In this document: positions 43,940-51,102 of the stretch, piece after piece | Layout of the letters: every line of letters begins with the position of its first letter | How positions within the stretch are numbered: the first letter of the stretch is position 1 | Assembly (NCBI RefSeq): GCF_000382345.1 | Contig: NZ_KB908078.1 | Coordinates: 139,849 to 203,848, forward strand | Direction: 5' to 3' | Origin: Massilia niastensis DSM 21313 | GTDB taxonomy: Bacteria > Pseudomonadota > Gammaproteobacteria > Burkholderiales > Burkholderiaceae_D | DNA: 64,000 nt | Program-made: the position numbers and the translations under genes | Notes under the pieces: model-generated | The model's input: only the letters and a program-made list of their open reading frames with translations | Told to the model about the DNA's origin: nothing | Databases searched by the model: none

Positions 43940-45973
43940 ATGAATCTATTTTTTGAAGAGTCGGGCGACTTCAAGGTCGGCGCCGTACTGTCGCAGGCCG
44001 GCGAGGCTTACCAGGTCGAGATGCCGAGCGGGAAACGCACCAAGGTCAAGGCGAAGGACGTGCTGCTGCAGTTCGACAAGCCGGAACCGCAAGCCCTGCT
44101 GGACGCCGCCAAGGGCATCGCCGCCGAGGTCGACCTCGACTTCCTGTGGGAAGTGGCGGGCGCCGAGGAATTCGGCTTCGCCGAGCTGGGCGCCGAATAC
44201 TTCGGCCATGCGCCGCTGCCGTTCGAGGCCGCCGGCCTGGTGCTGGCGCTGCACGGCGCGCCGATCTATTTCTATAAAAAGGGCCGCGGACGCTACAAGG
44301 CCGCGCCCGAGCAGTCGCTGAAGGCGGCGCTGGCCGGCATCGAGAAGAAGAAGCAGCAGGCGATCATCCAGGCCGGCTATGTGGACGAGCTGAAGGCGGG
44401 CAAGCTGCCGCAGGCCATGCAGGCGCTGGTGCAGCAGCTGCTGTTCAAGCCGGACAAGAACACCATCGAATACAAGGCGCTGGAAACGGCCGCCGACGAG
44501 ATGCAGACCACGGCCCAGCGCCTGATGCTGGCCAACGGCGGCCTGGCCTCGCCCAAGGAACTGCACATGGCGCGCTTCCTGTTCGAGCACTTCCCGCGCG
44601 GCGCCGGCTTCCCGCCGGTGGATGTGCCGAAGGCGCCCGCCGACCTGCCGCTGGCCGACGTGGCCGCGTTCTCGATCGACGACGTGACCACCACCGAGAT
44701 CGACGATGCGTTCTCGGTGGTGAAGCTGGAGGATGGCACCGTGCGCGTGGGTATCCACATCGCGGCCCCGGGCCTGGGCATCCGCCCGGACGACGCCATC
44801 GACAAGATCGCGCGCACCCGCATGTCGACCGTGTATATGCCGGGCGACAAGATCACCATGCTGCCGGACGAGGTGGTCGACGCCTTCACCCTGGCCGAGG
44901 GCAACGATTGCCCGGCGCTGTCGCTGTACGCGGTGCTCAACCCGGGCGACTGGTCGGTGGTCTCGACCACCACCCGCGCCGAGCGCGTGCCGGTCAAGAG
45001 CAACCTGCGCCACAACGACCTCGACGAGGTGGTCAACGAAGAGACCCTGAATAGCGGCGCGGGCGAGTATCCGCACAAGGAAGAGCTGGGCCTGCTGTGG
45101 CAGTGGGCGCTGGCGCTGGAAGCGGGCCGCATGAAGAAGCGCGAAGCCTTTGGCCTGAAGCCGGAGCAGGCGAACCGCGTCGACTTCAACTTCTACGTCG
45201 AGGACGACGTGGTGACCATCCTGCGCCGCAAGCGCGGCGCGCCGCTGGACAAGATCGTGGCCGAGCTGATGATCTTCGCGAACAGCACCTGGGGCAAGCT
45301 GCTGCACGACTCGGGCGTGCCGGGCATCTACCGTTCGCAGGCACCGGGCGCCGGCGGCTGGAACGCCAAGCTGCAGGTGCGCATGGTGACGCACGCGGCC
45401 CCGCACCAGGGCCTGGGCGTGGACCAGTACGCGTGGAGCACCTCGCCGCTGCGCCGCTACACGGACCTGGTGAACCAGTGGCAGATCCTGGCCTGCGCCT
45501 CGAACGGCGTGACCGCGCCGCTGGTGGCGCCGTTCAAGCACCGCGACGCGACCCTGTTCTCGATCGTGTCGGCGTTCGACGCGGCGTATTCCGCGTACAA
45601 CGACTTCCAGCAGAACATGGAACGCTACTGGTGCCTGCGCTGGCTGGGCCAGGAGCAGGCGAAGCAGGTCGAGGCCGTGGTGCTGAAGGACGAGATCGTG
45701 CGCCTGGCCGAGGTCCCGCTGGTGGTGCGCCTGGCCGGCATGACCCAGGTGGCGCGCGGGGCGCAGGTGCGCCTGGATATCGTGCGCTGGGACGAGGTCG
45801 ACCTGACGCTGGAGGCGCGCCTGCTCGAAGTGGCGGCCGTGGCGCCGGATGCCGCGCTGGCGCTCGAGGATGAGGAAGAGGGCGATACCGGGGAAGCGGC
45901 TGCGACCGAAGCGGTCGAGGCCGAGGGAGCGGTGACGGTGGTGGATACGGGGACGGAGCAGGCGGCGTCGTAA
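43940..45973 (+). CDS. RNB-domain (RNase II/R-like) exoribonuclease
   Basis: A 677-residue 3'-to-5' exoribonuclease. The RNB catalytic domain begins near residue 235. The acidic cluster is D247, E253, D255 and D256 (SIDDVTTTEIDDAFSV); the position equivalent to E. coli RNase II D207 is Glu here. STSPLRRYTDLVNQ is the other hallmark. The N-terminus has a small beta domain but no clear paired cold-shock domains, and the C-terminus ends in an acidic, low-complexity tail (residues about 640-677). It starts 1 base after the ubiC stop. Confidence 0.92.
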   Translation: MNLFFEESGDFKVGAVLSQAGEAYQVEMPSGKRTKVKAKDVLLQFDKPEPQALLDAAKGIAAEVDLDFLWEVAGAEEFGFAELGAEYFGHAPLPFEAAGLVLALHGAPIYFYKKGRGRYKAAPEQSLKAALAGIEKKKQQAIIQAGYVDELKAGKLPQAMQALVQQLLFKPDKNTIEYKALETAADEMQTTAQRLMLANGGLASPKELHMARFLFEHFPRGAGFPPVDVPKAPADLPLADVAAFSIDDVTTTEIDDAFSVVKLEDGTVRVGIHIAAPGLGIRPDDAIDKIARTRMSTVYMPGDKITMLPDEVVDAFTLAEGNDCPALSLYAVLNPGDWSVVSTTTRAERVPVKSNLRHNDLDEVVNEETLNSGAGEYPHKEELGLLWQWALALEAGRMKKREAFGLKPEQANRVDFNFYVEDDVVTILRRKRGAPLDKIVAELMIFANSTWGKLLHDSGVPGIYRSQAPGAGGWNAKLQVRMVTHAAPHQGLGVDQYAWSTSPLRRYTDLVNQWQILACASNGVTAPLVAPFKHRDATLFSIVSAFDAAYSAYNDFQQNMERYWCLRWLGQEQAKQVEAVVLKDEIVRLAEVPLVVRLAGMTQVARGAQVRLDIVRWDEVDLTLEARLLEVAAVAPDAALALEDEEEGDTGEAAATEAVEAEGAVTVVDTGTEQAAS

Positions 45974-45982
45974 AGCCGTGGC

Positions 45983-46007
45983 AGGGTGGACGGGTTCTCC
46001 CGTCCAC
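45983..46007. repeat. Single REP-like palindrome after the RNase gene
   Basis: GTGGACGGG (45986-45994) pairs with CCCGTCCAC (45999-46007) over a TTCT loop, preceded by CAGG. The same GGGTGGACGG head opens the larger element at 49650-49761, so these look like members of one dispersed repeat family. It may also act as a terminator or mRNA stabiliser. Confidence 0.7.
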
Positions 46008-46146
46008 GCTACGCCCACCATTGGCAAAACGCCAATGTATCAACACCTGACTGTTGCACCCACGCCTTATCCCTCCCTACCCGCCCACTGGCGCGGTAGA
46101 ATGATTAAATTCCCTGATTCAACAGCCCCTCCGGCCCCTGCTGCGC

Positions 46147-48687: not shown

Positions 48688-49653
48688 ATGATCAACGTAT
48701 TTGTCCTACAAAATGGCCGACTGAACCAGGTAAGCATCGCTTCGCGCGAAGATCTCGAGAACGTTTCTCCGGTCTGGGTCGACCTCACCGACCCGACCGA
48801 GGACGAGCGCATCTGGGTGAAAACCATGTATGGCGTCACCCTGCCGGGCGAGGACGAGGTCCAGGATATCGAAGCGTCGGCGCGCTACTACGAAGCCGAG
48901 AACGGCGACCTGCACCTGCGCACCGACTTCCTGCTCGAGGAAGACGACGGTCCGGCGCGGGTCGTGACGGTCGCCTTCATCCTGTCCGGCAAAAAACTGT
49001 TTTCGGTACATAACGACGACCTGCCGGTGTTCCGGCTGGTGCGCATGCGCGCGCGTTCGCGCCCGGGTTCGATCGAAGACTACATGGACGTGCTGCTCGA
49101 CCTGTACGCGACCGACGCCGAGTATTCGGCGGATGCGCTGGAGGGTATCTACGAGAGCCTGGAAGAGGTCTCCACGCGCGTGCTGCAGAAGGAATTCACC
49201 GACCAGGACGCCGCCGCGGCGCTGAACGCGATCGCGCACGAGGAAGACTTGAACGGCCGCATCCGCCGCAACATGATGGACACGCGGCGCGCGGTCAGCT
49301 TCCTGATGCGCGGCCGATTGCTGAACGCCGACCAGTTCGAGGAAGCGCGCCAGATCCTGCGCGACATCGAATCGCTGGACGGCCACACGTCCTTCCTGTT
49401 CGACAAGGTGAACTTCCTGATGGACGCCACCGTCGGCTTCATCAACATTAACCAGAACAAGATCATCAAGATCTTCTCGGTGGCCTCGGTGTCCTTCCTG
49501 CCGCCGACCCTGATCGCGAGCGTCTACGGCATGAACTTCGACATCCTGCCGGAACTGAACTGGCGCTTCGGCTATCCGTTCGCGCTGACCCTGATGGCGG
49601 CCTGCGGGATCGCGCCGCTGTGGTATTTCCACAAGCGCGGCTGGCTGAAGTAG
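48688..49653 (+). CDS. corA: CorA-type magnesium/divalent metal transporter
   Basis: A 321-residue member of the CorA family. A large cytosolic N-terminal domain is followed by two C-terminal membrane helices with the selectivity motif GMN at residues 281-283 (VYGMNFDILPELNW). It ends with the basic tail FHKRGWLK. It imports Mg2+ (or Co2+/Ni2+) as a pentamer. Its TAG stop (49651-49653) is the first triplet of the palindromic repeat that follows, so the repeat may have supplied the stop. Confidence 0.95.
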   Translation: MINVFVLQNGRLNQVSIASREDLENVSPVWVDLTDPTEDERIWVKTMYGVTLPGEDEVQDIEASARYYEAENGDLHLRTDFLLEEDDGPARVVTVAFILSGKKLFSVHNDDLPVFRLVRMRARSRPGSIEDYMDVLLDLYATDAEYSADALEGIYESLEEVSTRVLQKEFTDQDAAAALNAIAHEEDLNGRIRRNMMDTRRAVSFLMRGRLLNADQFEEARQILRDIESLDGHTSFLFDKVNFLMDATVGFININQNKIIKIFSVASVSFLPPTLIASVYGMNFDILPELNWRFGYPFALTLMAACGIAPLWYFHKRGWLK

Positions 49654-49761
49654 GGTGGACGGCTATGCCGTCCACGCGGTGATCGTTATCGGCACCGATG
49701 CCGGACGCGATGATCTCGCCTCTAGCTACCACCGCGTGGGCGGGAAACCCGCCCACCCTAC
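49650..49761. repeat. 112-bp palindromic REP/MITE-like element at the corA stop
   Basis: The ends are a 9-bp inverted repeat, GTAGGGTGG (49650-49658) and CCACCCTAC (49753-49761). Each end is itself a hairpin: GTGGACGGC-TAT-GCCGTCCAC (49655-49675) and GTGGGCGGG-AAA-CCCGCCCAC (49736-49756). A further 9-bp pair, CCACGCGGT (49672-49680) with ACCGCGTGG (49731-49739), joins the two halves. This is the architecture of a paired REP (BIME) or small non-autonomous element; it has no coding capacity. Confidence 0.85.
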
Positions 49762-49768
49762 GCAGAAG

Positions 49769-49800
49769 CGGGCGGTGAAGACTCACCGCCCGTTTTTTTT
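49769..49800 (+). terminator. Intrinsic terminator of corA
   Basis: CGGGCGGTGA (49769-49778) pairs with TCACCGCCCG (49783-49792) over an AGAC loop, followed by eight Ts. It sits downstream of the palindromic element. Confidence 0.92.
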
Positions 49801-49803
49801 ACC

Positions 49804-51102
49804 TCAGGCCAGGCGCGCGAACACCCGGCGCGCGGCGGCGACGGTTTCCTCGATCACGGCGTCGTCGTGCTGGATCGAGACGAAGCCCGCTTCGAACATC
49901 GCCGGCGCGAAGTACACGCCTTCCTCCAGCATGCCGTGGAAGAAGCGGTTGAAGCGATCCTTGTCGCCGGCCATCATCTGGGCGTAGGTCGACGGGACCG
50001 TGGCCGAGAAGTACATGCCGAACATGCCGCCCACCGAGTCGGCGCAGAAGGCGATGCCCGCTTCGCGCGCCGCCGTCGCCAGGCCGTCGACCAGCTTGGC
50101 GGCCTGGGCGCCCAGCCGCTCGTAGAAGCCCGGCTCCTGCACCAGCTTCAGGGTGGTCATGCCGGCCGCCACCGCGACCGGGTTGCCCGACAGGGTGCCG
50201 GCCTGGTAGACCGGGCCGATCGGCGCCATCTTCTGCATCAGGTCCGCGCGGCCGCCGAAGGCCGCGACCGGCATGCCGCCGCCGATCACCTTTCCCAGCG
50301 CGGTCAGGTCCGGGGCGATGCCGTACATTTCCTGGGCGCCGCCGAGGCCGACGCGGAAGCCGCACATCACTTCGTCGAAGATCAGCACGGCGCCGTGCTC
50401 GGTGCACAGCTCGCGCATGCGCTGCAGGAATTCCGGGGTGGCGCGGATCAGGTTCATGTTGCCCGCGACCGGCTCCACGATCACGCAGGCGATGGTGTCG
50501 CCCATCGACGCGAACGCGTCTTCCAGCTGCGGGACGTTGTTGTAGTCGAGGACCAGGGTGTGCTTGACGAAGTCTTCCGGCACGCCGGCCGAGGTCGGGT
50601 TGCCGAAGGTGAGCAGGCCGCTGCCCGCCTTGACCAGCAGCGAATCGGCGTGGCCGTGGTAGCAGCCCTCGAACTTGACGATCTTGTCGCGGCCGGTGGC
50701 GCCGCGCGCCAGGCGCAGGGCGCTCATGGTCGCCTCGGTGCCCGACGAGACCAGGCGCACCTGTTCGATCGACGGCAGCAGGCGGCAGATCTCCTCGGCG
50801 ATCTCGATCTCGCCTTCGGTCGGCGCGCCGAACGACAGGCCGTTCGCCGCCGCATCCTGGACCGCCTTCACCACCTGCGGGTGGGCGTGGCCGAGGATGG
50901 CCGGGCCCCAGGAACCGATGTAGTCGATGTAGCGCTTGCCGTCGGCGTCCCAGAAGTACGGGCCTTCGGCGCGCGTGATGAAGCGCGGCGTGCCGCCGAC
51001 CGAGCGGAAGGCGCGCACCGGCGAGTTGACGCCGCCGGGCGTCGACTGCTGGGCGCGGGCGAACAGGATGTCGTTCTTGGAGCTGGCTTGTTCTGTGGTC
51101 AT
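49804..51102 (-). CDS. hemL: Glutamate-1-semialdehyde 2,1-aminomutase
   Basis: A 432-residue PLP enzyme making 5-aminolevulinate in the C5 haem pathway. The PLP lysine is K271 in [47 protein letters not shown] and [11 protein letters not shown] are the family motifs. Length matches the family. It is downstream of the ThiD-like gene on the same strand, with 125 bases containing tandem repeats between them. Confidence 0.97.

Follow-up and report, generated by a model that had tools for sequence, protein, structure and literature searches.

A GTAG-family REPIN whose head contains the stop codon of corA in Massilia niastensis DSM 21313

GTAG REPs form a superfamily of bacterial repeats (Di Nocera, De Gregorio, Rocco 2013, PMC3733652), and in the passages of that paper drawn on here they have the same GTAG head, palindrome and opposite-orientation dimers as the element described below, are likewise located after genes and associated with a RAYT (REP-associated transposase), and often supply the TAG stop codon of a gene through their termini. 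Its main text names neither Massilia, Janthinobacterium or Herminiimonas nor the head GTAGGGTGG, and a literature search with REP, REPIN and RAYT gave no REP paper mentioning Massilia among the matches listed. REPINs (Bertels and Rainey 2011, PMC3116915) share the REP doublet as the replicating unit, for which, in the sections consulted, a RAYT acting in trans was proposed; the element at corA differs in that it belongs to a beta-proteobacterial family. In vitro, other REP/TnpAREP pairs are described as recognising GTAG and cleaving at C|T sites (PMC8266576, in part); this cleavage and activity are features of other TnpAREP proteins, whereas the RAYT of M. niastensis is known from its sequence. 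According to the same sections, the IS200/IS605 elements have in common with REP/RAYT systems a related Y1 transposase and the logic of single-stranded DNA hairpins, whereas the REPIN at corA carries no gene.

The window (i.e. the whole stretch of DNA that was analysed, 64,000 nucleotides of contig NZ_KB908078.1) contains a corA gene whose frame ends on a TAG within the GTAG head of the left of two palindromes in opposite orientation (Table 1). The 44-nt arms of this 112-bp element (49650-49693 and 49718-49761) have 77% complementarity, and nested in the element are two perfect 9-bp hairpins (49655-49663/49667-49675 and 49736-49744/49748-49756), which confirms the sequence-only reading of an element with nested inverted repeats that begins at the corA stop. 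The stretch from 49645 to 49800, which includes a downstream terminator-like hairpin that contributes to the stability of the fold, is predicted to fold 8.7 SD (as single-stranded DNA) and 9.3 SD (as RNA) below 200 dinucleotide shuffles, none of the 200 being as stable in either case. The GTAG tetranucleotide stands 5' of an imperfect palindrome, as in GTAG REPs and REPINs, and the element is a REPIN (i.e. an inverted pair of REP units), an ordinary case of a known bacterial repeat type. Its right flank is GCAG, followed by the terminator-like hairpin, and a similar hairpin is found 3' of corA in several relatives without the REPIN. Elsewhere in the window, the half-element with the same head that had been reported at 45983-46007 does exist, but its limits were set too narrowly: it is a single REP unit with an intact GTAG head on the minus strand, and the RNB-domain gene next to it ends at 45973.

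Table 1. Features at and around the 3' end of corA (window coordinates) and the RAYT genes of the same genome
Feature	Position	Strand	Remarks
Solitary REP unit, corA-REPIN family	45981..46012 (GCAGGGTGG...CCACGCTAC)	-	GTAGCGTGG head; 3' of RNB-domain gene
corA, CorA-like Mg2+ transporter, 321 aa	48688..49653	+	PF01544, 180.9 bits; stop in REPIN head
REPIN, two inverted REP units, GTAG heads outward	49650..49761	.	112 bp
Left REP unit GTAGGGTGGACGGCTATGCCGTCCACGC	49650..49677	+	TAG at 49651-49653 = corA stop
Inter-REP spacer, 56 bases, partly self-complementary	49678..49733	.	
Right REP unit GTAGGGTGGGCGGGTTTCCCGCCCACGC	49734..49761	-	Minus-strand unit
Terminator-like hairpin and T run	49766..49800	.	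3' of REPIN
Class-III aminotransferase gene, converging on corA	49804-51102	-	Beyond terminator-like hairpin
First RAYT	G000:C30:41536-41964 (L129, L207)		183 bits to NF047646, cut-off 80
Second RAYT	C37 (L135)		Gene ends on TAG of REP head

The proposal that the element belongs to a dispersed REP/MITE-like family depended on there being further copies in the genome, and these were found: the exact unit pattern GTAGGGTGGN{6,16}CCACGC has 88 matches (41 + 47) in the 6.59-Mb genome, compared to none for the reversed pattern, which served as the control. When the leading G is dropped from the pattern, 90 TAGGGTGG units are obtained, of which 88 are preceded by G, so that the leading G belongs to the element. 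More than half of the exact units (54 of the 88) fall into 27 close pairs, which are head-outward in 23 cases; with units counted as 28 bp each, these head-outward pairs are 78-116 bp long and nine of the 23 measure exactly 112 bp, like the one at corA. The other 34 units are more than 150 bp away from any exact partner. For 72 of the 88 heads, the nearest upstream gene, as called with a self-made gene caller, points its 3' end at the head. Among 61 genomes (the own genome and 60 relatives) the exact pattern is present in 39, including 34 of the 36 congeners, and the number of exact units ranges from 0 to 598 across the 37 genomes of the genus; the REP/RAYT family that is added here is one with strongly variable copy number, suited to studies of REPIN spread. 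That the palindrome is spurious, having been produced by the high GC content, is hardly conceivable. The short head alone (GGGTGGRCGG with at most one mismatch) does occur at chance level in the window (23 matches versus 21 expected) and is by itself uninformative, but this does not hold for the full unit, given the 88 units versus 0 in the control, the up to 598 units in one congener, and the drop outside the genus, where 4 of 24 genomes from other genera of the order have 1-9 copies.

As for a REP-associated transposase, a search with the NF047646 profile gave two RAYTs above the cut-off in the own genome. The first has a REPIN before the gene and REP units after it, all of the corA-REPIN family, and it keeps the HxH and YIxxNPVKHG stretches, which we take to hold the catalytic residues. 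It also matches the solved E. coli TnpAREP (PDB 4er8) at 140 bits. A RAYT with corA-family repeats on both sides is thus encoded in the same genome. The Pfam profile PF01797 was also used to look for the transposase, and yielded three other Y1 proteins, none of which has a corA-family REP beside it; both RAYTs score below the cut-off of that profile and were missed by it. Across the genus, where one RAYT locus per genome was examined and the own genome counted, 27 of the 30 loci have a GTAG[GC]G[TC]GG head within about 800 bp, and none was seen within that distance of the remaining three (L199, L206 and L209). The median number of exact REP units is 143 in the 25 genomes with a RAYT scoring above 165 bits versus 25.5 in the 12 others (Mann-Whitney p 3e-4), in a comparison that ignores phylogeny and with a 165-bit limit that was set by eye after the scores had been seen. 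G029 (L192) has a high-scoring RAYT and 0 exact units; its flanking REP head is GTAGGGCGGGTC instead of GTAGGGTGG, and it is a diverged REP/RAYT pair. RAYTs are paired here by linkage with the REPs that they would move.

Two further genes of the own genome, L031 (C5:47721-48047) and L032 (C41:584-919), are Y1/RAYT-like and have no GTAG REPs alongside. Instead, short AGGGTCAGA- or AGGGACAGAGTC-type repeats flank both sides of each, which recalls the RAYTs with unrelated terminal repeats that are mentioned in passages of Di Nocera et al. (PMC3733652). At L033 (C18:18049-18279) there is an IS200-like TnpA fragment with an internal TGA, and beside it a long frame that resembles TnpB (named from its sequence).

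Following these results, the best explanation, to which a probability of roughly 0.93 is assigned, is that the corA-end element is a non-autonomous REPIN of the GTAG family, which would have been spread in trans by the RAYT of this genome and, in the lineage of the window, would have landed between corA and its terminator, whereby its head became the stop codon and the protein remained unchanged. This reading builds on the established anatomy of the element, its dispersed family, the linked RAYT, the fact that the relatives examined lack this copy, and the unchanged length of CorA. The RAYT, encoded elsewhere in the genome, probably moves the REPIN through single-stranded DNA, presumably by single-strand cleavage and transfer as for other REP/RAYT pairs in vitro, with the evidence for mobility consisting of presence/absence differences between species. 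The odd ending of corA would then be explained by a mobile repeat.

None of the 29 other congeneric corA loci has the REPIN at the position seen in the window, so that the conservation at the same place which would have refuted the proposal did not appear among them; in five of these loci, different copies lie at different offsets. Of the 30 congeneric loci, the own one included, 6 have a family head no more than 200 nt from the corA stop (with 61 nt readable at the G020 locus), and no two share an offset: counted from the first base of the stop, the other five heads start 7 nt (here the reverse head comes first), 14 nt, 17 nt, 27 nt and 61 nt downstream. Judging from these loci, the REPIN is not ancestral at corA but present there in the window's lineage. 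It had been suggested that such an insertion may have truncated or redefined the C-terminus of CorA, which is not borne out: in the nearest relatives without the REPIN, CorA has 321 residues and ends in GWLK, as in the window, and the window's CorA matches the Pfam profile through its last position. The congeneric CorA proteins terminate with GWLK or GWLR, or have a few residues after GWL, and most of 80 named corA loci have similar ends at 320-323 residues (L110 being one of the exceptions); the best named match shows 95% protein identity, in a comparison from which records of the own genome were possibly absent. Because the CorA proteins of relatives are similar in length and end, the element did not shorten CorA, truncation is ruled out, and at most the stop codon has been exchanged.

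The same loci bear on whether the REPIN could instead be an old, immobile element of the 3'-UTR, kept as a stabiliser or terminator of the corA mRNA. The strong RNA fold right at the stop and the 72 of 88 heads that face the 3' end of the nearest upstream called gene would suit such a role, as would a report that REPs near stops (within 15 nt) stall ribosomes in E. coli (PMC12306157, as far as its relevant passages go). However, the position is empty in all 29 other congeneric corA loci, the different copies of five of them lying elsewhere, and a terminator-like hairpin already follows the REPIN, similar ones being present in element-free relatives, which makes this explanation very improbable. 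A regulatory effect of the REPIN on corA is nevertheless possible: the corA mRNA would carry a strong predicted hairpin from the stop codon onwards, which could tune translation termination or the stability of the 3' end.

The overlap with a stop codon is not particular to corA. In 22 of the 88 heads the TAG is the stop of a gene (21 according to codon-model gene calls from a self-made, uncurated caller, plus the RAYT gene of L135, which the caller missed and which was seen directly), the next commonest head-to-stop distances being -3 (four heads) and -9 (three heads). As background, 495 GTAGs in 464 kb are either located at a stop or noncoding according to that caller, and 17 of them are stops (two REP cases removed), from which the 22 of 88 differ with a binomial p of 2e-13. 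In the congener G015, within a 400-kb sample that was picked because it contains REPs, 9 of 84 heads overlap stops versus a background of 15 of 378 (p 0.006). Stop overlap is a habit of the REP family, and one that has already been published. REPIN insertions presumably survive mainly behind genes, and those that hit a stop may do so because the GTAG head itself is an in-frame stop codon.

Whether the TAG arrived with the REPIN or preceded it was approached through orthologues of the genes with a REP-overlapped stop in seven relatives, which gave 108 rows at 18 sites (the query of 21 gene tails omitted the RAYT gene tail of L135, and L007, L116 and L136 gave no rows). The commonest difference in protein length is zero at 12 of the 18 sites. 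At L026 the orthologue is 3 residues longer in five of the seven relatives, and a gene with a MotB/OmpA domain beside the RAYT (L129:3126-3851), whose end falls on the head of the REPIN upstream of the RAYT, is 9 or 13 residues shorter than in all seven. The orthologues end in TGA (57), TAA (37) and TAG (14 of 108; 13%), the share of TAG being the same as in non-REP genes of the genome (32 of 249). Since length is usually unchanged and TAG in the orthologues is no more frequent than background, the repeat apparently takes the place of the native stop. For control genes that have a TAG stop but lack a REP, 17 of 51 orthologue rows show TAG, compared to 8 of 50 for REP genes when these three relatives are used for both (Fisher p 0.064), or 11 of 30 versus 4 of 33 when rows of equal length are taken (p 0.037); the rows are not independent, and among the 51 control rows that of c5 in G004 matches a paralogue. 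These control rows came from 21 of 26 queried genes, out of 32 candidates (one was dropped as a doubtful ORF and five by rank).

Against this, it could be argued that insertion takes place 3' of a GTAG which was there beforehand, as with IS200/IS605 elements at a fixed short target, and that corA already ended in G-TAG. The tetranucleotide is nearly invariant (88 of 90 units), sections of PMC8266576 liken the position of GTAG in REPs to IS200/IS605 guide sequences, the four heads at distance -3 need a TAG stop immediately before them, and corA stops in the 29 other congeneric loci, although mostly TAA (15) or TGA (11), include three TAGs without a full REP unit at the stop (G020, G070 and G016). 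The orthologue-stop comparisons, however, gave no support for such a target: TAG is at background level in the orthologues and, if anything, rarer for REP genes than for controls. Moreover, at L130 the TAGCAC that forms the native stop and its flank in two relatives (G005 and G034) persists downstream of the REPIN, which reads as a direct sign of REPIN insertion before the native stop. Taken together, the stops of relatives leave a pre-existing GTAG target disfavoured and rather unlikely.

Replacement of the native stop by one supplied by the element is accordingly weakly favoured for the overlapped genes, in which case the TAG would have come with the REPIN. A scar of the native stop to the right of the REPIN is clear at L130 and suggestive at L124; at corA it was looked for and not seen. 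All seven relatives in the orthologue comparison end corA in TAA, so that a stop swap at corA is likely. Length-neutral stop replacement seems to be a nuance beyond those passages of PMC3733652 that deal with TAG stops, and, if confirmed, it bears on where and how REPINs insert. A more far-reaching version, in which REPINs integrate or are retained at stop codons, with their own TAG replacing a native TGA or TAA at unchanged protein length, would make stops a preferred landing place and imply that stop usage is remodelled. This is tentative and doubtful as yet, considering the dependent rows, the weak contrast with the controls (p 0.04-0.06) and the smaller spike in G015 (9 of 84).

Finally, some arrangements at gene ends stand on their own. 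At L123, L142 and L116 of the own genome, a REPIN fills the entire gap between two converging genes, its heads forming both stops; at L116 one of the two stop-forming heads is a GTAGCGTGG variant. In the congener G067 (L181, 2462 and 2574), where a REPIN follows corA, a 26-base stretch that includes the corA stop is present on either side of it, which looks like a target duplication.
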